A stretch of 64,000 nt of DNA. Source: Sedimenticola hydrogenitrophicus. GTDB lineage: Bacteria > Pseudomonadota > Gammaproteobacteria > Chromatiales > Chromatiaceae. Position 1 is the stretch's first letter. Each line of letters starts with the position of its first letter. The stretch lies in contig NZ_JAQGEI010000032.1 in the NCBI RefSeq assembly GCF_029017505.1, positions 1 to 64,000 of the forward strand, read 5' to 3'. Positions 2,917 through 46,074 of the stretch are shown here, piece after piece. The position numbers and the translations under genes are program-made. The notes beneath the pieces were generated by a model. That model made no database searches. It saw only the letters and a program-made list of their open reading frames with translations, and was not told the origin of the DNA.

Positions 2917-3261
2917 TTAGATGTCGCCGCGCTCCTTGGCCTCGAAATCGGCCTGGGCCTGCAGCAGCGAAACTGCGCACTCGGCAATATCGGTATACTC
3001 GTAGACCCCGGTGCCGTATTGGCGATAGGGTTTGTAGAAGAACTGGCAGCGGTAATGCTTGTCACCGGTCTTGAAAATGACGAAATGGCAACCGTCCCAC
3101 TGCCAGTACCATACCGGACAGGCGCTTAGTTCCCGGTCGGAGGGGCGCAGGCGGATCTCGGAATCGGCCAACTGCAACTCTACCTCCTGATTGTAGCGCT
3201 CGTGCAGGGTGGTGCGGATGATCCAGGTTTCGTTGTCCGTGATATCAGGAATGGTTTGCAT
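2917..3261 (-). CDS. Conserved hypothetical protein, 114 aa
   Basis: A small soluble protein without signal peptide or membrane segment. It is rich in aromatic residues in the middle (WYWQWDGCHFVIF, then HYRCQFFYKPYRQYG) and ends in an acidic helix. Codon use resembles neighbouring genes, which supports it being real. I do not recognise a domain. It is transcribed on the same strand as the phosphofructokinase gene, 223 bp upstream of it, and could be co-transcribed or independent. Function unknown. Confidence 0.7.
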   Translation of the reverse strand: MQTIPDITDNETWIIRTTLHERYNQEVELQLADSEIRLRPSDRELSACPVWYWQWDGCHFVIFKTGDKHYRCQFFYKPYRQYGTGVYEYTDIAECAVSLLQAQADFEAKERGDI

Positions 3262-3328
3262 AACTATACGATTGCCTTATGTCTAATTGGCGATACATAA
3301 GGATAACCTATCCAGAGTATCCTTGCCT

Positions 3329-3500
3329 AGGAGCCTGTCGGACTTGGCGCTGATCTACTGCGGAAAAGCCGGGCTTGGCCATATTTTCCGATCTTTCTCG
3401 TTTAATAGGTCCACTATTGGCCTCGAAAGATCGAAAGATCGAAAAATCTGGCTCAAGCCGGCTTTCCCTCGCTACGATCGGTCAAGCCCGACAGGCTCCT
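3329..3500. mobile_element. MITE-like element, family B, copy 1 (172 bp)
   Basis: The ends are inverted repeats, AGGAGCCTGTCGG on the left and its reverse complement on the right. The reverse complement of the whole element matches 48715-48877 along nearly its full length, including GATTTTTCGATCTTTCGAGG and AACGAGAAAGATCGG. No coding sequence is present, and no clear target duplication can be seen at the flanks. Confidence 0.8.
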
Positions 3501-32024: not shown

Positions 32025-33023
32025 TCAGTTCGCGGATTGAGCGCGGTTGGAACCAGCCAGGTAGTCACGAAAGCCGGTACGGATCTTCTCCACCGGTTCG
32101 GATCTGCAGTACTCGTCGCCGCGCGGCGAGGATTTGCACTGCAGGTCCATGAACAGCTCCGCACCCGGCCGGTCCTTGTAGCGGATGCGCGATGCGGTGA
32201 GGCTGATATCCTCGTCCTTCAGCGGCGCGGCGGACATGATGATGCTGTCGCTGAGCATCTGCAGGCGGGTGGTGGTATGTTGGCGCACGTACTCCTCCAC
32301 CTTGATCCAGGCCAGGTCGCAGTCCCGCGCATCCCGGCACACCACCACCGTATCCAGTAGCGAGACGGTCCTCTCCTGGTCGAATCGCGGGTCGGTATTC
32401 TCTTCTTGCAGATTCCTCAGGCTGCGGAAGCGGGCCAGATCCTTGGCCGCCTTGTTGCGTATGGCCTCTTTCTCCTGCTCCTTCTGGATGATTGCGGTGT
32501 AGCTGTCGCGCAGCTGAGTGCGGGTGTTTTCGATATCCTGGATCAGATTCTCCGAGAGCCGTTGCCCCTGCCGTTCCATCGAGGCCGCGCTCTCCTGCAT
32601 CTCCGCCAAGTGGTCTTTCATGCGCCGGATGTTGCCGCGGATCACCTGGATATTGGAGTCGATGGCCGTCAGTTTGCCGTTGCGCGCCATGAGCAGGTCA
32701 TCTTCCGTACGGAAGGTCCGCAACAGCACCTGATCCTTGGCCTGCTGCAGCTCGATCAGCCGCTGCTGTTCCGCGCGCAGCTTTTCCAGCTCCCGCTCCC
32801 GGGCGATCTCCTCCGCGGTCTTGGCCGCCTGGGTGCGTTCCAGTTCGCGGCCGCTCTCGCTCAGCTCGGAGCGGGCGCTACGCGCGTGCTCGGTGGGTAC
32901 CCGGTCGGAGAGGTGGACGTTGCCCTCCTCGTCCACCCAGCGATAGATCTTGCCCGCCGTGACCTGGGTGGCGAGGAGGCAGGCGGCGAGTATTCCGAAG
33001 GACAGTCTGTATGCTCTACTCAT
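32025..33023 (-). CDS. DUF4124-domain exported coiled-coil protein
   Basis: A 332-residue protein with a cleavable signal peptide (LSFGILAACLLATQVTAG). A DUF4124 motif follows, KIYRWVDEEGNVHLSDRVP, typical of periplasmic proteins of unknown role. Residues about 65-205 form a long coiled coil rich in Glu, Arg and Lys. The C-terminal third has four cysteines (VVCRDARDC and LQCKSSPRGDEYC) that could form disulfides. Upstream of pyrE's 3' end, same strand. Function unknown. Confidence 0.85.
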   Translation of the reverse strand: MSRAYRLSFGILAACLLATQVTAGKIYRWVDEEGNVHLSDRVPTEHARSARSELSESGRELERTQAAKTAEEIARERELEKLRAEQQRLIELQQAKDQVLLRTFRTEDDLLMARNGKLTAIDSNIQVIRGNIRRMKDHLAEMQESAASMERQGQRLSENLIQDIENTRTQLRDSYTAIIQKEQEKEAIRNKAAKDLARFRSLRNLQEENTDPRFDQERTVSLLDTVVVCRDARDCDLAWIKVEEYVRQHTTTRLQMLSDSIIMSAAPLKDEDISLTASRIRYKDRPGAELFMDLQCKSSPRGDEYCRSEPVEKIRTGFRDYLAGSNRAQSAN

Positions 33024-33110
33024 AGGGCTCGGGGATCAGGTGCTCGGTCTGCGGTGTTTTCGGTATTGCTCACTATCGGGCAGAAAGCGGGTGATGTAAA
33101 GCCACCCCCG

Positions 33111-33752
33111 TCACACCCCGTACTGCTCGCGATAAGCGCGGATCTGCTGCAGAGACTCACCGGCATCCGCTTTCTCCGCCAGGTACTCCACCAGGTGCTC
33201 CAGCCGGACGATGGCGGCCACCGGCATCCGGTAGTCAGCTTCGACCTCCTGGATGGCCGAGCGTTCCCCGGTTCCCCGCTCCTGGCGGTCGAGTGCGATC
33301 ACCACGCCGGCCGGGGTGGCGCCCTGGGCGCTGATGACCTCCATCGACTCGCGGATGGCGGTGCCGGCGGTGATCACGTCATCGATAATCAGGATGCGCC
33401 CCTCCAGGGGGTGGCCGACGATGCTGCCGCCCTCGCCGTGGTCCTTGGCCTCCTTCCGGTTGAAGGCGTAGGGGATGTCGATCCCGTGCTGGTCATAGAG
33501 CGCGGCGGCGGTCACGGCCGCCAGGGGGATGCCCTTGTAGGCCGGGCCGTAGAGCACGTCGAAGCGGATGCCGGAGTCGACGATCGCCTGGGCGTAGAAC
33601 TTGCCCAGCCGGGCCAGGCTGGAGCCGCTGTTGAACAGGCCGGCGTTGAAGAAGTAGGGGCTGACGCGGCCTGACTTGAGGGTGAAGCGGCCGAAACGCA
33701 ACACTCCCACGTCGAGGGCGAAATCGAGGAAATCTTTTTGATAACTTTGCAT
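33111..33752 (-). CDS. pyrE: Orotate phosphoribosyltransferase
   Basis: Adds phosphoribose from PRPP to orotate, making OMP in pyrimidine synthesis. 213 residues from [14 protein letters not shown], the standard gammaproteobacterial start; the upstream in-frame extension runs through a repeat element and is discarded. The PRPP-binding motif [13 protein letters not shown] and [16 protein letters not shown] are visible. It is divergent from ampG, with a 263-bp structured element between them. Confidence 0.96.
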
Positions 33753-33813
33753 GTCTGACTCCAGATACGGGATGCCAGATTGTCCGTTCCCGGCGGCCGC
33801 GATGCAAGGGTAG

Positions 33814-34076
33814 GTACTCTGCCAGGGTGATATTGACGTATTCAGTTGGCCTGTCCGCGTTCCTGGCAAGGCGCGGCTCGCGGCGAATGGCCCGGTCCTT
33901 TGCAAGAGCCGCAACACGGCCAGGGGCGCGGACAGGCCAACCCGAAGGGCGCCCCTGTGGTGTCCCGCCGCCGCGTTGCGTCGTTTGACAAGGACCGGGC
34001 CATTGCCTGCACGACGCGCCTTGCGGCGAAATACCACAGGGGCGCTGAACTAGTCAATATCACCCTGGCAGAGTAC
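33814..34076. repeat. 263-bp inverted-repeat element holding two paralogous structured hairpins
   Basis: The outer arms (33814-33837 and 34053-34076) are a perfect 24-bp inverted repeat that begins GTACTCTGCCAGGG. Inside are hairpin H1 (33848-33938, plus strand) and hairpin H2 (33949-34045, minus strand). Each has an outer stem (GGCCTGTCCGCG and GCGCCCCTGTGGT respectively), a lower helix, an internal loop AAGGC opposite AACRCG, an upper helix and a 26-nt apical loop. The helices differ in sequence but stay paired. The two apical loops are nearly perfect complements of each other over 26 nt (AATGGCCCGGTCCTT is exact). The element lies in the pyrE/ampG divergent promoter interval. Confidence 0.8.
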
Positions 34077-34148
34077 TGGGGGAAAGGGCAGCGTTATCGG
34101 GTACAATCGCGCCCTGATATCTATTCCAGGGGCGGGGTGTTCCAAGCT

Positions 34149-35687
34149 ATGGCGACAGGGGAGAGCAGGGACTGGGCGGCTACATTGCGGGCATGTCGGC
34201 ACCCGCGGGTGCTGGTCATGCTGTTTTTCGGCTTTTCCGCCGGTCTCCCGTTGCTGCTGATCTTCTCCACCCTGTCGCTGTGGTTGCGCGAGGCGGCGGT
34301 CGACCGCTCCACCGTCACCTATTTCAGCTGGGCCGCGCTGGCTTACTCGTTCAAGTTCGTCTGGGCGCCGCTGGTGGATCGGCTACCGCTGCCGTTGCTG
34401 ACCGCCTGGCTGGGACGGCGGCGTGGCTGGCTGTTGTTGTCACAGCTCTCGGTCATTGGCGCCATTCTCTGGATGGCGTTCACCGATCCGGCGGAGAGTC
34501 TGTACCTGATGGCGTTCGCCGCCGTGCTGCTCGGCTTCTCCGGGGCCACCCAGGATATCGTCATCGACGCCTATCGCATCGAATCGGCGGAACAGGAGCT
34601 GCAGGCGCTGATGGCCTCCATGTACATCGCCGGTTACCGGGTGGGTATGCTGGTGGCCGGTGCCGGCTCGCTCAAGCTGGCGGCCTGGTTTGGCGCCGAG
34701 GGGGGCTATTACTACAGCGCCTGGCAGTGGACCTACCTCTGCATGGCGGCGGTCATGTGCGTCGGGGTGCTCACCACCCTGCTGGTGGCGGAACCGAAGG
34801 TCGATCCGGCGCGCCCCGGTGTGTTCCATGGCGCCTCCGACTATGTCCGCTTTCTGCTGCTGTTCCTGCTGGCGGTGGCGGTCTTTGCCGCCAGCTTCTT
34901 CCTCAGCAGGGATCTGGTCGGCGCGACCAAGGCCGACTGGCTGGCCGCCCTGCCGGGGGATGCGCTGCTGGCCGGTTTCGTGCTGGAGGGGGCGCGCCTG
35001 CTGCTGGCGCTGCTGCTGGCCTGGCTGGCCGCCCGGCTGGGGGTGGCCCTGGGGCTGGTGCGCGGCGAGGTGCTGCGCGAGGCCTACCTGGAGCCGCTGG
35101 CCGACTTTTTCCGCCGCTACCGCCGGGCCGCGCTGCTGGTGTTGTTGCTGGTCGGCCTCTACCGGGTGTCGGATATCGTGCTCGGGGTCATCGCCAATGT
35201 GTTTTTTCAGGATATGGGCTTCAGCAAAGACCAGATAGCCGACATTAGCAAGACCTTCGGCCTGGTGATGACCCTACTGGGCGGCTTCCTGGGCGGAGTG
35301 CTGACCCTGCGCTACGGCGTGATGCGCATCCTGTTTCTCGGCGCATTGCTCTCCGCCGCCACCAACCTGCTGTTTCTGCTGCTGGCCCGCGGGGGCGCGG
35401 ATGTGTCGCTGCTGATGCTGGTCATCACCGCCGACAATCTGAGTGCCGGGCTGGCCGGCGCCGCTTTCGTGGCCTACCTGTCCGGGTTGACCCATGTCGC
35501 CTTCACCGCCTTCCAGTACGCGATGTTCAGCTCCCTGATGACCCTGGCGCCGAAACTGCTCGGTGGCTACTCGGGTACCCTGGTGGATGCCTTCGGTTAC
35601 GAACGCTTCTTCCTGTTCACTGCGGTGCTGGGTCTGCCGGTACTGCTGTTGATCTATCTGGCCAGCCGTTTTAGCGACGCCGAATGA
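34149..35687 (+). CDS. ampG: AmpG-family muropeptide permease (MFS)
   Basis: Imports anhydro-muropeptides from the periplasm for cell-wall recycling. 512 residues from MATGESRDWAATLRACRHP, with about 14 membrane segments predicted. The signature LFFGFSAGLPLLLIFSTLSLWLREA, the YSFKFVWAPLVDRLPLP loop and the GFSGATQDIVIDAYRIE motif identify the AmpG branch. An in-frame extension upstream passes through the repeat element and is rejected. Its stop overlaps the ribosome-binding region of the next gene. Confidence 0.92.
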   Translation: MATGESRDWAATLRACRHPRVLVMLFFGFSAGLPLLLIFSTLSLWLREAAVDRSTVTYFSWAALAYSFKFVWAPLVDRLPLPLLTAWLGRRRGWLLLSQLSVIGAILWMAFTDPAESLYLMAFAAVLLGFSGATQDIVIDAYRIESAEQELQALMASMYIAGYRVGMLVAGAGSLKLAAWFGAEGGYYYSAWQWTYLCMAAVMCVGVLTTLLVAEPKVDPARPGVFHGASDYVRFLLLFLLAVAVFAASFFLSRDLVGATKADWLAALPGDALLAGFVLEGARLLLALLLAWLAARLGVALGLVRGEVLREAYLEPLADFFRRYRRAALLVLLLVGLYRVSDIVLGVIANVFFQDMGFSKDQIADISKTFGLVMTLLGGFLGGVLTLRYGVMRILFLGALLSAATNLLFLLLARGGADVSLLMLVITADNLSAGLAGAAFVAYLSGLTHVAFTAFQYAMFSSLMTLAPKLLGGYSGTLVDAFGYERFFLFTAVLGLPVLLLIYLASRFSDAE

Positions 35688-35698
35688 GGAGATCGGTT

Positions 35699-36328
35699 AT
35701 GCATCCTGAATTGATAATCGGCGCGGAGGGGTGGGAGCACGCCGCCTGGAACGAGTCGTTCTATCCCGATGACCTGCCTCCCGAGTGGCGGCTGAGCTAC
35801 TACGCCAATGAGTTTTCGCTGCTGCTGGTGCCGTTTGAAGTCTGGCGGACGGGTGATGACGAGCGGTTTCGCGGCTGGCGCGAGGATGTGGCGGGAGGCT
35901 TCCGCTTCGTCCTGGATGTCACCGGCATGGCGCTGGAGGACGGGCGGTCCCTGCAGCAGCTGCAGCGCTGCCAGTCGGCCCTGGGGGATCGGCTGGCCGG
36001 TGGCGTCTCCTGGTCGGCGGCGTCGCCGTCCGACTGCGCGCGGCTGCGCGGCTGGCTGGGGGATGGACGTTTTCTGGCGTCGGCGGCGCGGCGGCCGGAC
36101 CTGCCGTTGACGGTACGGGTGGCGGCTGACGGAACGACCCTGTGCGCCCTTATTCCCAGCGAGGCGGCGGCGGATCTCAAGTGGCTGCGTTCGGTGCTGG
36201 AGTCGCTCTCCGCCGGGCGTGCGGAGACCAAGCGCCTGCTGCTGTTCTTTACCGGGACGCCGCCGCGTACCCAGACGATGCAGGAGGCAGGGCTGCTCTG
36301 GCAGCTGCTGGCGGGGATGCGACGTTAA
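35699..36328 (+). CDS. DUF72-like protein, degenerate or short form
   Basis: A 209-residue protein whose first 45 residues (IIGAEGWEHAAWNESFYPDD, then LPPEWRLSYYANEF) resemble the DUF72 start IGTSGWSY...W...FYP..LP...YYA..F. The remainder is shorter than the usual 240-300 residues and does not obviously keep the family's later motifs. It overlaps the end of ampG through ATGAGGAG, which supplies a ribosome-binding site for the ATG at 35699. Its stop codon TAA forms the left edge of a palindromic element. The molecular role is unknown. Confidence 0.75.
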   Translation: MHPELIIGAEGWEHAAWNESFYPDDLPPEWRLSYYANEFSLLLVPFEVWRTGDDERFRGWREDVAGGFRFVLDVTGMALEDGRSLQQLQRCQSALGDRLAGGVSWSAASPSDCARLRGWLGDGRFLASAARRPDLPLTVRVAADGTTLCALIPSEAAADLKWLRSVLESLSAGRAETKRLLLFFTGTPPRTQTMQEAGLLWQLLAGMRR

Positions 36329-36488
36329 GGGCCCGCGCAAGAATAAGTTCCTGTATTCGGTCGCCCCTGGACCCCGCTGGCGGCGTTACGCTTTTTGGCA
36401 AGGGAGCGGCCATTGCCTGCAAAGCGTGCCTTGCCAGCGTGGCCCAGGAACGCCCTCGATACTACGGAATTATTCTTGCGCGGGCCCT
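36328..36488. repeat. 161-bp palindromic element carrying structured hairpin H3
   Basis: Outer arms AGGGCCCGCGCAAGAATAA (36328-36346) and its exact reverse complement (36470-36488) enclose a hairpin read on the minus strand. Lower helix CGCTGGC/GCCAGCG, internal loop AAGGC opposite AACGCC, upper helix ACGCTTT/AAAGCGT, then an apical loop close to those of H1 and H2 (GCAGGCAATGGCC). The left arm begins on the last base of the preceding gene's stop codon. The remaining gap to mlaF (36489-36620) shows no other feature. Confidence 0.8.
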
Positions 36489-36620
36489 AAGGATTGTTGA
36501 TCGGGCTTGACGCTGTCGAACCCAAAAGGTGAGAATGCGCCCTTTGTCCACATGTGGGGCCGGTGTCCGCAGCCGGGGCAGAAAGCATCACGGAACGAAC
36601 GGTTGGAGCGTGGATCGGAT

Positions 36621-37442
36621 ATGGTGGAATCGGTAGACAGTCAGGTGCCCCTGGTCAGTATTCGGGGGTTGCGCTTCTCCCGTGGCAGCCGGGTCATCTT
36701 CGACGGCGTGGATATCGATATCCCGCGCGGCAAGATCACCGCCATCATGGGGCCGAGCGGTACCGGCAAGACCACCCTGCTGAAGCTGATCGGCGGCCAG
36801 CTGCGGCCCTCGGCCGGGACCATCCTGGTGGATGGGCAGGATATCCATCGCCTGGGCAACCGGGATCTCTATCGCCTGCGCATGCGCATGGGGATGTTGT
36901 TCCAGAGCGGCGCGCTGCTCACCGATATCGATGTGTTCGAGAATGTCGCCTACCCGTTACGCGAGCACACCGATCTCTCGCCCTCGATGATCCGCAAACT
37001 GGTGTTGCTGAAGCTGGAGGCGGTCGGCCTGCGCGGGGCGCGGGAGCTGATGCCGAGCGAGCTCTCCGGCGGCATGGCCCGCCGGGTCGCGCTGGCCCGC
37101 GCCATGGTGCTGGACCCGATGATGATCATGTACGACGAACCCTTCACCGGGCAGGATCCGATCTCCATGGGGGTGCTGGTGGAGCTGATCCGCGCCCTCA
37201 ACGACGCCAGCCGGTTGAGCAGCATCATCGTCTCCCATGACGTGCAGGAGACGGCGGCCATTGCCGACCTCATCTATGTCATCTCCAACGGCAAGGTGAT
37301 CGAATCGGGCGGACCCGAGGCGATGATCAATTCCGAGTTGGCTTGGACCCGGCAGTTCATGCAGGGGCTGGCCGATGGCCCGGTGCCGTTCCACTACCCG
37401 GCCGCTGAACTGGCCGACGATCTGCTGGGGGGCACATGCTGA
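36621..37442 (+). CDS. mlaF: ABC transporter ATP-binding protein MlaF
   Basis: ATPase of the Mla system, which keeps outer-membrane lipid asymmetry by moving phospholipids between membranes. 273 residues from [19 protein letters not shown]. Walker [13 protein letters not shown], signature [15 protein letters not shown], Walker [14 protein letters not shown] and the switch His in VSHDVQET are intact. It begins the mlaFEDCB operon and overlaps mlaE by 7 bp. Confidence 0.96.
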
Positions 37443-38215
37443 ACGCACTGGCACAGTTGGGGCGGGTCGGCATCGGCATGCTGGAGCGGCTCGGGCGTGG
37501 TCATCTGCTGCTGCTGGGGATCCTGCGTGGACTGCCGGACCTGTTGCCGCGCCCGGGTCTGCTCATAAAACAGATCTATTCCGTCGGCGTGTTGTCTATA
37601 TTGATCATCAGCGTGTCCGGGCTGTTTGTCGGCATGGTGCTGGGGTTGCAGGGCTACTATATTCTTTCCCAGTTCGGCGCCGAGCAGACCCTCGGAGTGA
37701 TGGTGGCGGCCTCGCTGGTGCGGGAGTTGGGGCCGGTGGTGGCGGCGCTGCTGTTTGCCGGCCGCGCCGGGTCGGCGCTGACCGCCGAGATCGGCCTGAT
37801 GAAGGCCACCGAGCAGCTCTCGGGACTGGAGATGATGGCGGTGGATCCGATCCGGCGCGTGCTGACGCCGCGTTTCTTTGCCGGCTTCATCTCCATGCCG
37901 TTGCTGGCGGCGCTGTTCAGTGCGCTGGGCGTGCTGGGCGGCTACTTTGTCGGCGTCGGCCTGCTGGGGGTGGATGACGGCGCCTTCTGGGCGCAAATGC
38001 AGGCCAAGATCGATCTGTACGAGGACGTGTTCAACGGCGTGATCAAGAGCGTGGTTTTCGGTCTGGTCTGTTCCTGGATCGCCCTGTTTCAGGGCTTTGA
38101 CGCGCTGCCCACCTCGGAAGGGGTGAGCCGGGCGACCACCCGCACGGTGGTCCACTCGTCGCTGGCGGTCCTGGGACTGGACTTCATATTAACGGCACTG
38201 ATGTTCGGGGATTGA
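37436..38215 (+). CDS. mlaE: Phospholipid ABC transporter permease MlaE
   Basis: Inner-membrane permease of the Mla complex. 259 residues with about five or six membrane segments. The MlaE/YrbE core is visible: [22 protein letters not shown], the [21 protein letters not shown] coupling stretch and the C-terminal [29 protein letters not shown]. It overlaps mlaF at its start and is followed at once by mlaD. Confidence 0.96.
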
Positions 38216-38707
38216 TTGATGATACAAAACAGGACGATTGAGATTCTTGTCGGTGCCTTCATGGCGGCGGGTCTGGTCGCTTTTTTCTTCCTGGCAATGC
38301 AGGTGAGCAACCTGAGCGCGTCCAACAACGGCGAAGGCTACGAGGTGACGGCCCGGTTCGACAACATCGGCAGTCTGAAGGTGCGTTCGCCGGTCACCAT
38401 GGCCGGAGTGCGCATCGGCCGGGTCAGCGAGATCGGCTTTGACCGCGCCACCTACGAGGCGCTGGTCAAGATGCGCATCGAGGGTCAGTACAATGTCATT
38501 CCCGAGGACAGTTTTGCCAAGATCTTCACCGCCGGGCTGCTGGGCGAGCAGTACATCGGCCTGGATCCGGGCGGTAGCGAAAAATATCTGCAGGCGGGCT
38601 CCGAGATCTCCCTGACCCAGTCGGCCCTGGTGCTGGAGGAGATTATCGGCCAATTCCTGTTCAGCAAGGCAGAGGAGGGTGGAACTCTTGAAAAAGCGAA
38701 TGATTAG
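38216..38707 (+). CDS. mlaD: MCE-domain substrate-binding protein MlaD
   Basis: Periplasmic MCE protein anchored by one N-terminal membrane helix (VGAFMAAGLVAFFFLAM). It forms the hexameric ring through which lipids pass. 163 residues. The MCE domain begins at about residue 40 (YEVTARFDNIGSLKVRSPVTMAGVRIGRV) and ends in LLGEQYIGLDPGG. The C-terminal helix is normal for the family. Start at 38216 or 38219 (adjacent ATGs). The 3' end overlaps mlaC. Confidence 0.95.
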   Translation: MMIQNRTIEILVGAFMAAGLVAFFFLAMQVSNLSASNNGEGYEVTARFDNIGSLKVRSPVTMAGVRIGRVSEIGFDRATYEALVKMRIEGQYNVIPEDSFAKIFTAGLLGEQYIGLDPGGSEKYLQAGSEISLTQSALVLEEIIGQFLFSKAEEGGTLEKAND

Positions 38708-39296
38708 CGGGATCTGGCTGGTGCTGGCGCTGCTGCTGGCGGCACCGGCGGTGGCGTCGGCGGATGCCGAAGAGATCGTGCGCCAGACGTCCGATCAGAT
38801 GCTCACCGAGCTGAAGGAGCGCAAGCAGGAGCTGCAGGCGTCACCGGGCAAGATCTACGCCCTGGTGGAGCATATCGTGCTGCCCCGGTTCGATTTCGAG
38901 CGCATGTCGCAGCTGGTGCTGGGCAAGCACTGGCCGCGCGCCAGCGAGGGCGAGAAAGAGGCCTTCGTGAAGGTGTTCCGGGAGTTGCTGGTGCGCACCT
39001 ACGCCACGGCGCTGTTGAACTACTCCGGCCAGGAGATCGTCTACCTGCCCTCGCACAAGGCGGCGGACGGCAAGGAGGTGACGGTGAATACCAAGGTGCA
39101 GGCGACCGGCGCGCCCGCTATCCCGATCAACTACCGGCTCTATCTCAATGGTGAGGAGTGGCAGGTGTACGATCTCTCCATCGACGGGGTCAGCCTGGTC
39201 TCCAATTACCGCTCCACCTTCTCCTCGCAGATCAAGCGCCACAAGCTGTCGGGGCTGATCGAGCGGCTCGAAAAGCGCAATCAGCCGGGCAGCTGA
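38688..39296 (+). CDS. mlaC: Phospholipid-binding periplasmic protein MlaC
   Basis: Soluble shuttle that carries phospholipid between MlaA-porin and MlaFEDB. About 202 residues: a signal peptide (MISGIWLVLALLLAAPAVAS), then the family core with VLPRFDFERMSQLVLGKHW and the YRLYLNGEEWQVYDLSIDGVS strand pair. I prefer a TTG at 38688 (MKKRMISGIW), 9 bp after GAGGAGG. The GTG at 38679 is almost on top of that ribosome-binding site. It overlaps mlaD by 20 bp, indicating coupling. Confidence 0.93.
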   Translation: MKKRMISGIWLVLALLLAAPAVASADAEEIVRQTSDQMLTELKERKQELQASPGKIYALVEHIVLPRFDFERMSQLVLGKHWPRASEGEKEAFVKVFRELLVRTYATALLNYSGQEIVYLPSHKAADGKEVTVNTKVQATGAPAIPINYRLYLNGEEWQVYDLSIDGVSLVSNYRSTFSSQIKRHKLSGLIERLEKRNQPGS

Positions 39297-39605
39297 ATGT
39301 CCTCTCCTCAGGCTGTCATTGATGACCAGGGGGTCATGCAGTTGTCAGGTGACCTGGTGTTCGCCCAGGTTACGCCACTGCTGGCGCAGATCGAGCGTCT
39401 GCTCGGCGACACCAAGGCGGAGCACCTGGTGCTCGACCTCTCCCGGGTGGACGATGTGGACAGCTCCGCGCTGGCGCTGCTGCTGGAGGTGATGGAGCGT
39501 GCCCGGGAGCATGGCGTGACGCTGCGGATCCGCTCGCTTTCCGAGGCGCTGCTGGGTATCGCCCGGCTGAGTAATGTCGAGGCGTTATTGCCGCTGGAGG
39601 CCTGA
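39297..39605 (+). CDS. mlaB: STAS-domain protein MlaB
   Basis: Cytoplasmic STAS protein that binds MlaF and is needed for complex assembly and activity. 102 residues with the LVLDLSRVDDVDSSALALLLEVMERA motif; the Asp-Ser-Ser-Ala centre is the typical STAS site. It begins immediately after the mlaC stop. Last gene of the mla operon; murA follows after a repeat-containing gap. Confidence 0.93.
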   Translation: MSSPQAVIDDQGVMQLSGDLVFAQVTPLLAQIERLLGDTKAEHLVLDLSRVDDVDSSALALLLEVMERAREHGVTLRIRSLSEALLGIARLSNVEALLPLEA

Positions 39606-39644
39606 GTGCCAGTCTGTCGGGTTTTTCCACGGTAGATTAGTTTT

Positions 39645-39714
39645 GTAGGGTGGATAAGCCGGTAGGCGCATCCACCGCGGTATTGGTGGATGCGCTGTGG
39701 CTTATCCACCCTAC
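39645..39714. repeat. Full palindromic GTAGGGTGGATAAGC repeat
   Basis: GTAGGGTGGATAAGCCGG and GGCGCATCCACC face GGTGGATGCGC and GCTTATCCACCCTAC, making a complete 70-bp palindrome. Single or shorter forms occur at 31681-31713, 43295-43327 and 54759-54788. It fills the mlaB-murA gap, where nothing else is seen. Confidence 0.75.
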
Positions 39715-39933
39715 GTTGCTGAGCAGTGTTGGGAACCTGCGGCCGCTGGCGGGTAGGGCGGGATACCGTTTCGATTGCCCGCCAGCGGCGCATTGCGTGG
39801 GACAATTTGGACTGGGTCGATAGTTTGAGCTTCACGCCTTCCGGTTTGCCGCCTTTTCTCATAGAATTGCCGGTTCCTTTGGGTTTTCTTCTTCCTTGGT
39901 GGTGCTTCTGGTGCCCGAAAAAATGGTTCTTAG

Positions 39934-41193
<1,260 letters not shown>

Positions 41194-41223
41194 GCCTTGC
41201 CGGCGACAGAGCGGGATGAGCAG

Positions 41224-41868
41224 ATGAACTTTGATACACCGATTACCATCGCCCTCTCCAAGGGGCGGATCTTCGAACAGACCCTGCCGCTGCTGGCCCA
41301 TGCCGGAATCGTGCCGAGCGACGACCCGGAGACCAGCCGCAAGCTGATCCTGGGTACCAATCACCCGCAGGTGAAGCTGGTGATCATCCGCGCCACCGAC
41401 GTCCCTACCTACGTACAGTGGGGGGCCGCCGACCTGGGGGTCGCCGGCAAGGACGTGCTGCTGGAACACGGCGGCGAGGGGCTGTACGAGCCACTGGACC
41501 TGGGGATTGCCCGCTGCCGCCTGATGGTGGCGGGGGTGCCCGCCGCCAGCCTGGAGGGCAATCGCCTGCGCATCGCCACCAAGTACGTGGAGTCGGCGCG
41601 GCGCTACTTCGCCGCCCGCGGCCAGCAGGTGGAGATCATCAAGCTGTACGGCTCCATGGAGCTGGCGCCGCTGGTCGGCCTGTCGGACCTGATCGTGGAC
41701 CTGGTGGAGAGCGGCAACACCCTGAAGGCCAACGGCCTGGTGCCGCTGCAGCACATCGCCGACATCAGCTCCCGCCTGGTGGTCAACAAGGCCGCCTGGA
41801 AGATGAAGCACGCCACCGTCATGCAACTGCTCGATGCCCTGCGGGAGGCGACCGCCAGGGCGGCGTGA
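41224..41868 (+). CDS. hisG: ATP phosphoribosyltransferase, short form
   Basis: First step of histidine synthesis: condenses ATP with PRPP. 214 residues, the short form lacking the C-terminal regulatory domain, which needs HisZ as partner; hisZ is not in this window. [24 protein letters not shown] is the typical start and is preferred over an ATG-like site 27 bp upstream. [14 protein letters not shown] and the PRPP motif [17 protein letters not shown] are present. Confidence 0.96.
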
Positions 41869-41919
41869 GTCGGCCACGCCTGGTACCACCCTCGTTTTAC
41901 TCTGCCATTGGAAAAGATC

Positions 41920-43218
41920 ATGTCTGAAATACGCCAGCTCTCCACCACCGACAGCGACTTTCAACAGCAGCTGGACCAGTTGTTGGCCTGGGAGTCGGTG
42001 TCGGACGGTGCGGTCAACAGCACCGTCAACGGAATCATCGACGACATCCGCAAACGCGGGGACCAGGCGCTGTTGGAGTACACTAACCGCTTTGACGGCT
42101 GGGAGGCCGCCACGGCCGCCGATCTGGAGGTGCCGCTGGCGCGCCTGGAACAGGCCTGGAACACCATTCCCGAGGCGCAGCAGGCGGCGCTGCGCCACGC
42201 CGTGGAGCGGGTCCGGGTCTACCATGAAAAGCAGAAGGGGGAGTCCTGGAGCTACCGGGAGGCCGACGGCACCCTGCTGGGCCAGAAGGTGACGCCGCTG
42301 GAGCGGGTCGGGCTCTACGTGCCGGGAGGCAAGGCGGCCTACCCCTCGTCGGTGCTGATGAACGCCCTGCCGGCCAAGGTCGCCGGCGTGCGCGAGCTGA
42401 TCATGGTGGTGCCGACGCCGGGCGGCGAACTCAATGAACTGGTACTGGCGGCGGCCCACCTGTGTGGTGTCGACCGGGTGTTCGCCGTGGGCGGCGCCCA
42501 GGCGGTGGCGGCGCTGGCCTACGGTACCGGACTGGTGCCGCCGGTGGACAAGGTGGTGGGGCCGGGCAATATCTACGTGGCCACCGCCAAGCGGGCGGTG
42601 TTCGGCCAGGTCGGTATCGACATGGTGGCCGGCCCGTCGGAGATCCTGGTGGTGTGTGACGGCCTCACCGATCCCGACTGGGTGGCGATGGACCTGTTTT
42701 CCCAGGCGGAACACGACGAGGATGCCCAGTCGATCCTGATCTCGCCGGACGCCGATTTCGTCGCCCGGGTGAAGCAGAGCATCGACCGGCTGTTGCCCAC
42801 CATGGAGCGCGAGCCGATCATCGCCGCCGCCCTGAAGGAACGCGGCGCGCTGATCGTCTGCCGCGACATGGACGAGGCGTGCCGGGTGGCGAATCACATC
42901 GCCCCGGAGCACTTGGAGCTGTCGGTGGAGGACCCGTTGACCCTGGTGGAACAGATCCAGCACGCTGGCGCGATCTTCATGGGGCGCTACACCTCTGAGC
43001 CGCTGGGGGACTACTGCGCCGGGCCGAACCATGTCCTGCCCACCTCGCGCACCGCGCGCTTCTCCTCACCCCTGGGGGTCTACGACTTCCAGAAGCGCTC
43101 CAGCCTGATCATGGTTTCGGATGCCGGGGCCGATACCCTGGGTCGGACCGCCTCCATTCTGGCCCGGGGCGAGGGGCTGACGGCCCACGCCCGCTCCGCC
43201 GAGTACCGACTCAAATAG
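41920..43218 (+). CDS. hisD: Histidinol dehydrogenase
   Basis: Final two oxidations of histidine synthesis, histidinol to histidine with NAD. 432 residues from [14 protein letters not shown]. The signature region [12 protein letters not shown] and [12 protein letters not shown], zinc-site residues in [10 protein letters not shown] and the IAPEHLEL motif are present. It lies 51 bp after hisG; hisC, the usual next gene, does not follow here, the downstream space being a repeat block. Confidence 0.97.
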
Positions 43219-43734
43219 CGTAGGGGCAACCCCCCGTGGTTGCCCGTGTTCCTCGTTCCCACGTTTCGCGTGGGAATGCATACCCGGCGGCAATGGTGGA
43301 TGCGCCCTTCGGGCTTATCCACCCTACGTACTCCGACCCCCCCTCGTTCCCATGCTCTGAGACTGTGAAAGTATTCAGGCTGATCAACGCGGCAAAAAAA
43401 TTGACCGCCTGAGAAGTCCGTAGAGAGGCGATCGCCATCTCGGGAAGGGTTTGGGTACCCCCCTTTTCGCGTCATTTGGCAATTCTTTCACAGTCTCTCT
43501 GCGTGGGAATGCATACCCAGCCGGTAGCGTAGGGGTAACCCCCTGTGATTGCCCACGCGACGCGACCCATATCCTGTCCGGGCAGGCACGGGGGCCTGCC
43601 CCTACGAGTTACCGGGTTCGGTGGGATGGGCGTGCCTCTTTTGCCCACGCGGAAGGCGGTTAGCTTGTCTGGCATAGGGCGGGCCGTGCCCGCCAAACGG
43701 CGCCCAAGGGGCGCCCTATGGTTTGTGGCCCGGA
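43219..43734. repeat. Dense intergenic repeat block
   Basis: No gene in 516 bp. In order: GTAGGGGCAACC palindrome, CCTCGTTCCCACG/CGTGGGAATGC repeat (43251-43284), GGTGGATGCGC...GCTTATCCACCCTAC (43295-43327), an interrupted second CCTCGTTCCC repeat (43341-43358 and 43501-43519) with an insertion, a second GTAGGGGTAACC unit, and a CATAGGGCG...CGCCCTATG palindrome (43673-43720). All are non-coding. Confidence 0.75.
43359..43497. mobile_element. 139-bp MITE-like insertion with 3-bp target duplication
   Basis: Terminal inverted repeats GAGACTGTGAAAG and CTTTCACAGTCTC flank 139 bp. It interrupts a CCTCGTTCCCATGC|TCT|GCGTGGGAATGC repeat whose intact form is beside it at 43251-43284. TCT is present on both sides (43356-43358 and 43498-43500), the expected 3-bp duplication. 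No transposase inside. Confidence 0.75.
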
Positions 43735-44889
43735 CTACTGCTGCTGCGGATCGAGGCGCGGCCGCTCGCTTACCTCGACCTGGATATCGATCGGCTCGCC
43801 GTTGCGCCACCCCTTGACCCGCACCTTCTCCCCGGGCGGCACGGCCGCGATCAGGTTGAGAATGTCGTGGGCACTGGTCAGCGGCTGCTCGTTGATGGTG
43901 GAGATCACATCCCCCGGTGTTAGCCCCGCCTGGTCGGCCGGGCCGCCCTCCAGTACCCCCGAGACCAGCACCCCGCGGCCCGCCTTCAGGCCGAATGACT
44001 CGGCCAGTTCCTGGGTGATGTCCTGGCCGGCAATGCCGAGCCAGCCGCGTACCACGCGGCCCTGTTTCAGGATCTGCTCCATCACCCCCTTGGCCAGCGT
44101 GACCGGGATGGCGAAACCGATCCCCTGGGAGCCGCCGCTCTTGGAGAAGATGGCGGTGTTGATCCCCACCAACTGACCGTGGGCATTGATCAGTGCGCCG
44201 CCGGAGTTGCCCGGGTTGATGGCGGCATCGGTCTGGATGAAGTTCTCGAAGGTGTTGATGCCGAGCTGATTGCGTCCGGTGGCGCTGACGATGCCCATGG
44301 TAACCGTCTGGCCGACGCCGAACGGGTTGCCGATGGCCAGGACCACATCGCCCACCTGCAGCCCCTGGGAATCACCCACCGTGATGGTGGGGAGGTCGTC
44401 CGCGTCGGTCTTCAGCACCGCCAAGTCGGTGTCCGGATCACCCCCCGCCACCTGGGCATCCAGGGTGCGGCCGTTGGAGAGTACGACACGGATCTGGTCG
44501 GCATCCTCGATCACGTGGTTATTGGTGAGGATATAGCCGTTGCGGCTGATGATGACCCCGGAACCGAGACTGGTCTGGAGTTGTTTGCGCGGCTGGGACC
44601 GAAACCGGTCGCCGAAAAAGCGCTGGAAAAACGGGTCGTCGAACAGCGGGTTACCGCGCTGTACCGTGACTTTGGCGGTAAAGATATTGACCACCGCCGG
44701 CGCCGCCAGCTGCACCGCGCTGGCATAGGAGACCGGTCCCTGATTCTGCCCGGCGGGCAGGACCGGCAACGGGTCCGGCGTGAGCAGTTCCGTGGGCGCC
44801 GGCGCGGTGAACAGGGTCACGGCAATATAGGCGGCCGCCATGCCGGCGAGGGCGGAGGTGGCGATATAGGTGAAGGCTCTTTTCATCAT
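43735..44889 (-). CDS. degS: DegS/AlgW-type membrane-anchored serine protease
   Basis: Periplasmic trypsin-like protease that cleaves the anti-sigma factor RseA/MucA in the envelope-stress response. 384 residues: one N-terminal membrane anchor (about 5-27), then catalytic His in TNNHVIEDADQI, Asp in DTDLAVLKTD and Ser in GNSGGALINAHG. A single PDZ domain at about 285-370 distinguishes it from two-PDZ DegP/DegQ. The position near hisD and before petABC matches algW in Pseudomonas. Confidence 0.9.
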   Translation of the reverse strand: MMKRAFTYIATSALAGMAAAYIAVTLFTAPAPTELLTPDPLPVLPAGQNQGPVSYASAVQLAAPAVVNIFTAKVTVQRGNPLFDDPFFQRFFGDRFRSQPRKQLQTSLGSGVIISRNGYILTNNHVIEDADQIRVVLSNGRTLDAQVAGGDPDTDLAVLKTDADDLPTITVGDSQGLQVGDVVLAIGNPFGVGQTVTMGIVSATGRNQLGINTFENFIQTDAAINPGNSGGALINAHGQLVGINTAIFSKSGGSQGIGFAIPVTLAKGVMEQILKQGRVVRGWLGIAGQDITQELAESFGLKAGRGVLVSGVLEGGPADQAGLTPGDVISTINEQPLTSAHDILNLIAAVPPGEKVRVKGWRNGEPIDIQVEVSERPRLDPQQQ

Positions 44890-44953
44890 GCGGTCAGGTT
44901 ACACTGCAGCGGTCAAATATGGGATAGCTTATTATGTCCCATTACCGAGGGTA

Positions 44954-45112
44954 AGGGCCTGGAAAGAAATAACTGCTACGTATTGCGCCGGATTTTCGTT
45001 TGCCTTCAAGGCACGGCAAGGCGCGCATAGTCGTTCTATGTAAGTCTTGCCGTAACGCCGAAGGCGGGCGAAAAGACCAGCAAGATGTAGTAGTTATTTA
45101 TTGACAGGTCCT
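44954..45112. repeat. 159-bp palindromic element carrying structured hairpin H4
   Basis: Ends AGGGCCTGGAAAGAAATAAC and GTTATTTATTGACAGGTCCT are imperfect inverted repeats. Inside on the plus strand: lower helix GCCTTC/GAAGGC, internal loop AAGGC opposite AACGCC, upper helix ACGGCAAG/CTTGCCGT, then CATAG/CTATG with loop TCGTT. It shares the internal loop of H1-H3 but has a short tip. It lies between the divergent degS and nif3-like genes. Confidence 0.75.
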
Positions 45113-45129
45113 CAGGGCGAGGCGGAGCG

Positions 45130-45876
45130 ATGATCGATATTTTTGAACTGGAACGGTACTGCAATGACCTGTTGGCGGCCGATGGCTTTGAGGACTACTG
45201 TCCCAACGGGTTGCAGCTGGATGCGGGCCGACGGGAGGTCCGCCGCCTGGTGACCGGGGTCACCGCCAGTCAGGCTCTGATTGAGGCGGCCGGGCAGGCC
45301 GGGGCCGATCTGCTGCTGGTTCACCACGGCTATTTCTGGCGCGGCGAACCCGCTCCGCTGACCGGTGTTAAAGGTCGGCGGGTGCGTGCCCTGATGACCG
45401 CCGGCATCAGCCTGCTGGCCTACCATCTGCCGCTGGATGCCCATCCGCAGCTGGGCAACAACCGCAGCCTGGGCGATGTGCTGGGGATCCGGCAGGCGCG
45501 GGCCCTGGATCAGGGGCTGGTCTGGCAGGGTGAGCTGGCTGAGGAGCCGCCAGCCGCCCTGGCCGGCCGGATGGCCGGACTGCTGGGGCGGGCGCCGCTG
45601 CTGATCGCGGCGGGTGACCGGCCGATCCGGCGTATCGGTTGGTGCACGGGGGCGGCACAGGGGGCCATCGTGGAGGCGGCCGCGGCCGGGCTCGATGCCT
45701 TCATCAGCGGCGAGGTGTCGGAATCCACCACCCACCTGGCCCGGGAGTTGGGCATTCACTATTTCTCCGCTGGCCATCACGCCACCGAACGCTTCGGGGT
45801 ACAGGCCCTGGGCCGCCACCTGGCGGAAAAGTTCGACCTGGATCATCAGTTTATCGATATCGACAATCCGGTCTGA
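45130..45876 (+). CDS. Nif3-like dinuclear metal-centre protein
   Basis: A 248-residue YbgI/NIF3 family protein with a di-metal site. Conserved histidines and acids are seen in LLVHHGYFW, SLLAYHLPLDAHP and FSAGHHATERFGVQAL. Often annotated as GTP cyclohydrolase I type 2 homologue, but its real reaction is not settled. Divergent from degS and upstream of petABC. Confidence 0.92.
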   Translation: MIDIFELERYCNDLLAADGFEDYCPNGLQLDAGRREVRRLVTGVTASQALIEAAGQAGADLLLVHHGYFWRGEPAPLTGVKGRRVRALMTAGISLLAYHLPLDAHPQLGNNRSLGDVLGIRQARALDQGLVWQGELAEEPPAALAGRMAGLLGRAPLLIAAGDRPIRRIGWCTGAAQGAIVEAAAAGLDAFISGEVSESTTHLARELGIHYFSAGHHATERFGVQALGRHLAEKFDLDHQFIDIDNPV

Positions 45877-46074
45877 GCGGCAGGCGGGCGATTGCCCGAC
45901 TACACGAATGGCCCCGATACGGGTCAGGTCATTCTTGACCTCGGGCGTCGCATGTAAGAGAATGCGCCGTCTATTTTGGGGTAAATATCAGCATATACTG
46001 ATTTTCCTGAGCCAATCCTGCATAAGATTCGGCCGGGATTTTCAGCGTCCGGCCTACTCCGGGAGTCTTAACTA

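Follow-up and report, generated by a model that had tools for sequence, protein, structure and literature searches.

The stretch of DNA analysed here (the window, 64 kb) carries three short insertions, all of them intergenic, as a sequence-only reading of the same DNA had placed them. The first lies between pyrE and an AmpG-family gene, the second between a gene with a DUF72 match below the cut-off and a gene for an ABC-transporter ATPase, and the third between genes for a Do-family DegS-like protease and NIF3, in line with the degS/nif3 context proposed earlier; of the gene names suggested, mlaF for the ATPase was not confirmed. The four hairpins (H1 to H4) called in that reading, with both helices of each, are all present in the sequence where it had located them. 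All four are real, but they are not four separate units: H1 and H2 form the two arms of a single, two-core twin element, whereas H3 and H4 each belong to a single-core palindrome. The features are as follows, with bit scores from model R2, a covariance model built from 59 cores.

33814..34076, strand unassigned: twin-core MITE of family C, 263 bp, between pyrE and the AmpG-family gene
33814..33837, plus strand: left terminal inverted repeat of the twin, from sequence
33862..33924, plus strand: core hairpin H1 (R2 73.6 bits, strict scan, fold)
33966..34028, minus strand: core hairpin H2 (R2 77.9 bits, strict scan, fold)
34053..34076, minus strand: right terminal inverted repeat of the twin, from sequence
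36326..36328, plus strand: target duplication TAA, left of the family-A element (flanks, empty site)
36329..36487, minus strand: single-core MITE of family A, 159 bp (genome copies, empty site in the close genome G003)
36376..36438, minus strand: core hairpin H3 (R2 79.0 bits, strict scan, fold)
36488..36490, plus strand: target duplication TAA, right of the family-A element (flanks, empty site)
44952..44954, plus strand: left flank TAA of the family-D element, imperfect target duplication
44955..45111, plus strand: single-core MITE of family D, 157 bp (genome matches, empty sites in the close genomes G001 and G003)
45002..45065, plus strand: core hairpin H4 (R2 59.1 bits, strict scan, fold)
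45112..45114, plus strand: right flank TCA of the family-D element, imperfect target duplication

The strict scan (motif plus helices, on the plus and minus strands) picked out exactly these four units in the window, and nothing in 50 copies generated from it by a first-order Markov model. The same four were recovered by model R2 at E ≤ 1, together with two low-scoring matches no better than chance (13.8 and 12.5 bits). Folded in isolation, H1 and H2 lie only 2 standard deviations below the energies of their shuffles, H3 3.7 and H4 7.2, and the whole twin (265 nt, with H1 and H2 inside) has a z-score of −14.1. Its predicted fold consists of an outer stem formed by the terminal repeats and two long arms with a tiny hairpin in between; the two cores have opposite orientations, so that one of the two is correctly oriented on either strand. 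H3 and H4 are located near the tips of their palindromes (159 and 157 bp). Elements of this group, 157–290 bp in size, have terminal inverted repeats and no gene inside. Two details of the earlier description required correction. Of the supposedly fixed 5x6 internal loop, the 5' side (AAGGC) is indeed fixed, but the 3' side reads AACRCN, and in the predicted folds of H3 and H4 GGC pairs with GCC, leaving AA and AAC as bulges. The 26-nt apical loop said to be common to H1–H3 is similar among them, but not identical.

The flanks and the corresponding sites in close genomes show that the elements are mobile. In the family-A search, which also took in family-D copies and a few chance matches, the 3-base flanks were identical in 59 of 78 matches (shuffled mean 27.6, maximum 39), and in family D this was so for 14 of 19 (mean 7.2, maximum 11); single-core elements have a 3-bp TNA target duplication. 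At the boundary first used, 15 twins had no flank repeat above shuffles (0–3 of 15), and one twin copy (L043) has a dinucleotide once at the empty site and twice at the filled one, a 2-bp duplication read at this one site. Empty sites were found for the H4 element in both G001 and G003, and for the H3 element in G003. The site of the window's twin, at most a possible empty site, holds no element in G003 and an 18-nt remnant in G001. When eight twin copies were compared with G001, three sites were empty, four had 246–263 bases between the flank matches (three of them also found as 95–98% twin matches) and one retained only the outer stem. As a separate observation, the TAA that holds the H3 element in the window is occupied in the G001 ortholog of this site (L213, ~3009-3430) by another, unlike insertion of ~420 bp, which makes it an insertion hot spot.

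The source genome (5.13 Mb) is rich in such elements. The pattern AAGGCRCGN{20,50}AACRC has 137 matches in it versus 13 for the reversed control, some family-D copies being counted twice and some matches arising by chance. The covariance-model search that the sequence-only reading had proposed did recover many copies: of 6016 candidates, 150 were scored with model R1, built from 15 cores, and 136 of these matched at E ≤ 0.01. Family A accounts for at least 40 full-length matches (40 of 120 candidates scored) and family D for 35, fragments included; the twins comprise seven full copies of C type and seven of B type, and further groups are a long-loop variant of family A (eight loci) and families E and F. 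The eight elements of the variant (L157-L164) have a longer apical loop with an extra hairpin, giving a core of ~110 nt, and two family-D copies (L085 and L086, 174 bp) share the same extra 17-nt piece in the same arm.

Beyond this genome, R1 detected the core in 24 of 55 relatives (the source genome counted in). Within the class, where at most 14 matches were scored per genome, R2 found it in 116 of 369 genomes and 89 of 272 genera. In a phylum sample it was present in 82 of 398 genomes, of which 36 belong to the class and 46 to others, with 37 of these 46 from one family. An exact pattern scan over 84,980 species yielded at least 113 stretches. The 80 listed all have Pseudomonadota titles, nearly all of them Gammaproteobacteria, with one Rhodocyclales; from these names we take the class to be Gammaproteobacteria. 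Genera among the matches listed include Pseudomonas, Stutzerimonas, Azotobacter, Marinobacter, Alcanivorax and Thioalkalivibrio. The motif, which the sequence-only reading could not match to a named RNA family, has no match in Rfam: a search at gathering score returned only two tRNAs in the window and only tRNAs in 16 loci from other genomes, and at E ≤ 1 a single match within 33000-46000, outside the elements and far below threshold (23.8 bits).

Covariation in both helices, as had been claimed, is strong and exceeds the controls. Double-changed cells, which in all these counts come from related sequences and are not independent events, number 343 in alignment A2 (83 distinct sequences of 87 matches, a few of them weak; 95.5% of cells paired) against a shuffled mean of 104, with 0 of 500 shuffles as high, and 258 in A3 (58 distinct sequences; 96.2% paired) against a mean of 77. 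The number of pairs with a double change in A2 (12 versus 11.2 in shuffles) is not distinctive. Both alignments were fitted to the structure, and slid versions of them are at most 46% paired. In three further sets, the structure was predicted from the very alignment being counted. Among 46 family-A copies of the source genome (97.3% paired), 26 pairs had double changes, with 114 such cells in all (shuffled mean 24.9, maximum 41). For 16 family-D copies the number of cells was 17 (mean 5.2, maximum 14). For 36 non-redundant twins, in which 86.9% of cells were paired, it was 1214, spread over 95 of 113 pairs (mean 391, maximum 429). The outer stem of these twins is partly there by construction because they were trimmed by their terminal repeats; the presence of exactly two arms over 60 nt in 36 of 36 is not. 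The further claim that the pattern does not reflect simple descent has to be given up in that form, since the units are homologous and the pattern is one of descent with maintained structure. The two outcomes named in advance as refuting a selected structure, copies that are all identical or an Rfam or IS-end family explaining it, are not what was found; one family elsewhere has ends in common with an IS5-family insertion sequence, so the outer frame, and not the core, is of IS-end type.

Between the helices, the unpaired motif hardly changes. All 59 rows of A3 are identical in columns 8–11 (AGGC) and 59, while the remaining AAC/GC positions agree in 54–58 of 59. In family A, AAGGC is unchanged in all 46 copies and AACGCC changed in 0–7%, with mean changes of 7.5% at paired and 9.8% at unpaired positions. 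AAGGC is likewise unchanged in family D, the last base of AACGCC differs in 19% of copies, and mean change is 4.9% at paired and 4.4% at unpaired positions, so that no clear excess of conservation marks the loop in this family.

Mismatches within the helices differ between the strands. Read on the AAGGC strand, A3 contains 33 G.T versus 5 A.C cells. Among 80 of the at least 113 pattern loci, chosen by a pattern that left upper-helix and outer-arm positions free, there are 23 G.T versus 0 A.C in the free upper-helix pairs and 57 versus 13 among isolated mismatches of the outer arms; in the lower helix, the counts are 11 and 3, with 41 other mismatches. In the source genome, the same stricter count, which keeps only mismatches flanked by Watson-Crick pairs, gave 22 versus 0 in family A and 4 versus 0 in family D, and the opposite direction in twins (5 versus 8). 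A cruder count with no register check gave 136 versus 127 in 71 outer arms and, in the source genome, 48 versus 18 (A), 47 versus 34 (twins) and 20 versus 11 (D). Because G.T exceeds A.C in most counts, the AAGGC strand, as RNA or as single-stranded DNA, is probably the selected fold; among single elements, this strand folds better in 62 of 62 (46 of 46 and 16 of 16), with RNA and DNA parameters.

A candidate partner comes from Azotobacter chroococcum NCIMB 8003, in which pAcX50e carries an insertion sequence of ~860 bp annotated as IS5 and pAcX50f a 269-bp twin. Their left ends agree in 18 of the first 19 bases, and the twin and the IS5-family element have the ends CTAGGG.CTGTTGACGTTT in common, a shared terminal repeat which marks these elements as MITEs; ends in common with an autonomous element were found for the Azotobacter twin only. 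The IS5 coding sequence of pAcX50d, which is an NF033580 protein (260 bits), is 95.3% identical to its pAcX50e counterpart, and an IS4-family coding sequence also lies between the ends there. No core matches above chance were found in the Azotobacter IS stretches, and the core model matches only one arm of the pAcX50f twin. For the window's own families, no partner transposase was found in the loci and genomes examined. The only PF01609 match of the source genome is of IS1380 type (L184; G000:C38:14859-15593), with no terminal repeats found around it, and was rejected as the partner. NF033580 had matches in 6 of 16 other genomes, above cut-off in 2; terminal repeats were sought at six such loci and MITE ends compared at three (L374-L376), none of which fit. 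A plasmid search with the H4 element and a phage search with the twin gave no match. Lone terminal repeats, or pairs without a core, occur at L177, L178, L179, L182, L183 and a G001 site in L367, and were probably left by internal deletion. They were rejected as the ends of autonomous elements at L177, L178 and L179, in whose ORF lists no transposase was recognised on inspection; L180-L183 were scanned for terminal repeats only.

The terminal repeats, target duplications, empty sites and covarying core bear out the earlier suggestion of a structured non-autonomous element. We read the elements as MITEs moved in trans by DDE transposases and carrying a homologous core whose folded AAGGC strand serves the element, and give this reading as a whole a probability of roughly 0.55. 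Such movement is well supported for this kind of element in general, and in one lineage the shared ends point to it, the likely partner in Azotobacter being the IS5-family insertion sequence. The core is homologous across families with different terminal repeats. Its stems vary but stay paired, and the unpaired motif is fixed; this pattern suggests that the element makes some use of its folded single strand, our best guess being an RNA or single-stranded DNA domain. The same unpaired bases recur in families that differ in their ends and in the type of target duplication, of which there are two, and twins show the core on both strands, which points to a role of the fold itself: it would be bound by a host or transposition factor, helping the element to persist or spread, and this may be why families with different ends keep it. 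Only tentatively, and with less expectation that it will hold, we suggest that the core may be an ancient portable folding domain needed for MITE spread, selected on one strand while the ends were exchanged or evolved for different DDE transposases, with a factor that recognises the fold, and not the sequence, protecting the element or mediating its copying.

Neutral processes could account for part of this. If these were ordinary MITEs, with template switching or hairpin-templated repair keeping the palindromes perfect, the fold would be functionless and the loop simply inherited; double changes do occur even within one genome (the 26 family-A pairs above), as do internal deletions that leave the outer stem. 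Such copying should, however, perfect the internal loop as well, yet AAGGC/AACGC stays unpaired and nearly fixed between families, and it explains the stems while giving no reason for the excess of G.T on one strand. We therefore regard it as unlikely. An RNA useful to the host, whether terminator, mRNA stabiliser or processing site, selected locus by locus, would suit the intergenic position at all three places in the window and the strand-specific folding, but we consider it improbable: no promoter-like or terminator-like site was found inside the three window elements, presence varies between close genomes (as at the three empty twin sites of eight in G001), and gene orientation showed no bias among 21 callable insertions (17 of 37 in family A and 4 of 17 in family D, by naive ORF calls), a comparison of little power. 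Improbable too, in our judgement, is mobility of attC or REP/IS200 type, with a transposase or recombinase reading the folded strand rather than its sequence; structure is kept with stem sequence free, the terminal stem included, but the target duplications and the ends in common with a DDE (IS5) element point to double-strand DDE transposition.

MITEs are usually regarded as decayed transposons without a selected interior. In the present elements the interior has changed, in many genera, in the way of a functional structured RNA, and as it can be modelled, searched for and mutated, a functional structure in a MITE becomes directly testable. IS5-family insertion sequences of the NF033580 type resemble these elements in the ends shared with the Azotobacter twin, but have no core hairpin, and their ends carry a short repeat only. 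In integron attC sites, the fold is conserved, the stem sequence is free and the strand is marked by unpaired bases. The elements appear analogous in their conserved fold and free stem sequence; identity with attC was rejected, as they are dispersed insertions with target duplications at the sites read and not cassette arrays. Bacterial MITEs as described in the accessible parts of PMC10969869 are likewise short, gene-less, strongly folding and present in many intergenic copies, with terminal inverted repeats and target duplication, but those parts do not mention a homologous covarying core common to families with different ends, as found here. REPs (20–40 bp, with a GTAG or CGTC tag) and BIMEs share the high copy number of hairpins and their inverted pairs, according to the portions consulted of PMC3733652 and PMC2817692; elements of 157–280 bp with terminal repeats and target duplication are not units of 20–40 bp without duplication, and this identity was also rejected. 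Among the Pseudomonas fluorescens repeat families R0-R200, which are intergenic and in part MITE-like, R200 (320 bp, 47 copies in SBW25) may, going by its description in the accessible text of PMC2718517, be a Pseudomonas member of these twins. Coxiella QMITEs have other duplications, and AAGGC is absent from the text available (PMC5896051). In the open literature searched, we recognised no description of a shared covarying MITE core. Thus, MITEs themselves are known and single families may already be present in repeat collections; what is new is that MITE families differing in their terminal repeats carry a single folded core, homologous among them. A covariance model now exists for a repeat class which has no Rfam entry and is present in about one third of the genomes sampled from the class.

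The window holds two other repeats. The one at 43342-43524 (~175 bp), whose ends resemble an inverted repeat around GACTGTGAAAG, has no core-model match and has copies of 94–98% identity on other contigs of the source genome and in G001. The second, at 39640-39716, is palindromic and short (GTAGGGTGGATAAGC...GCTTATCCACCCTAC); G001 and G003 also have copies of it.
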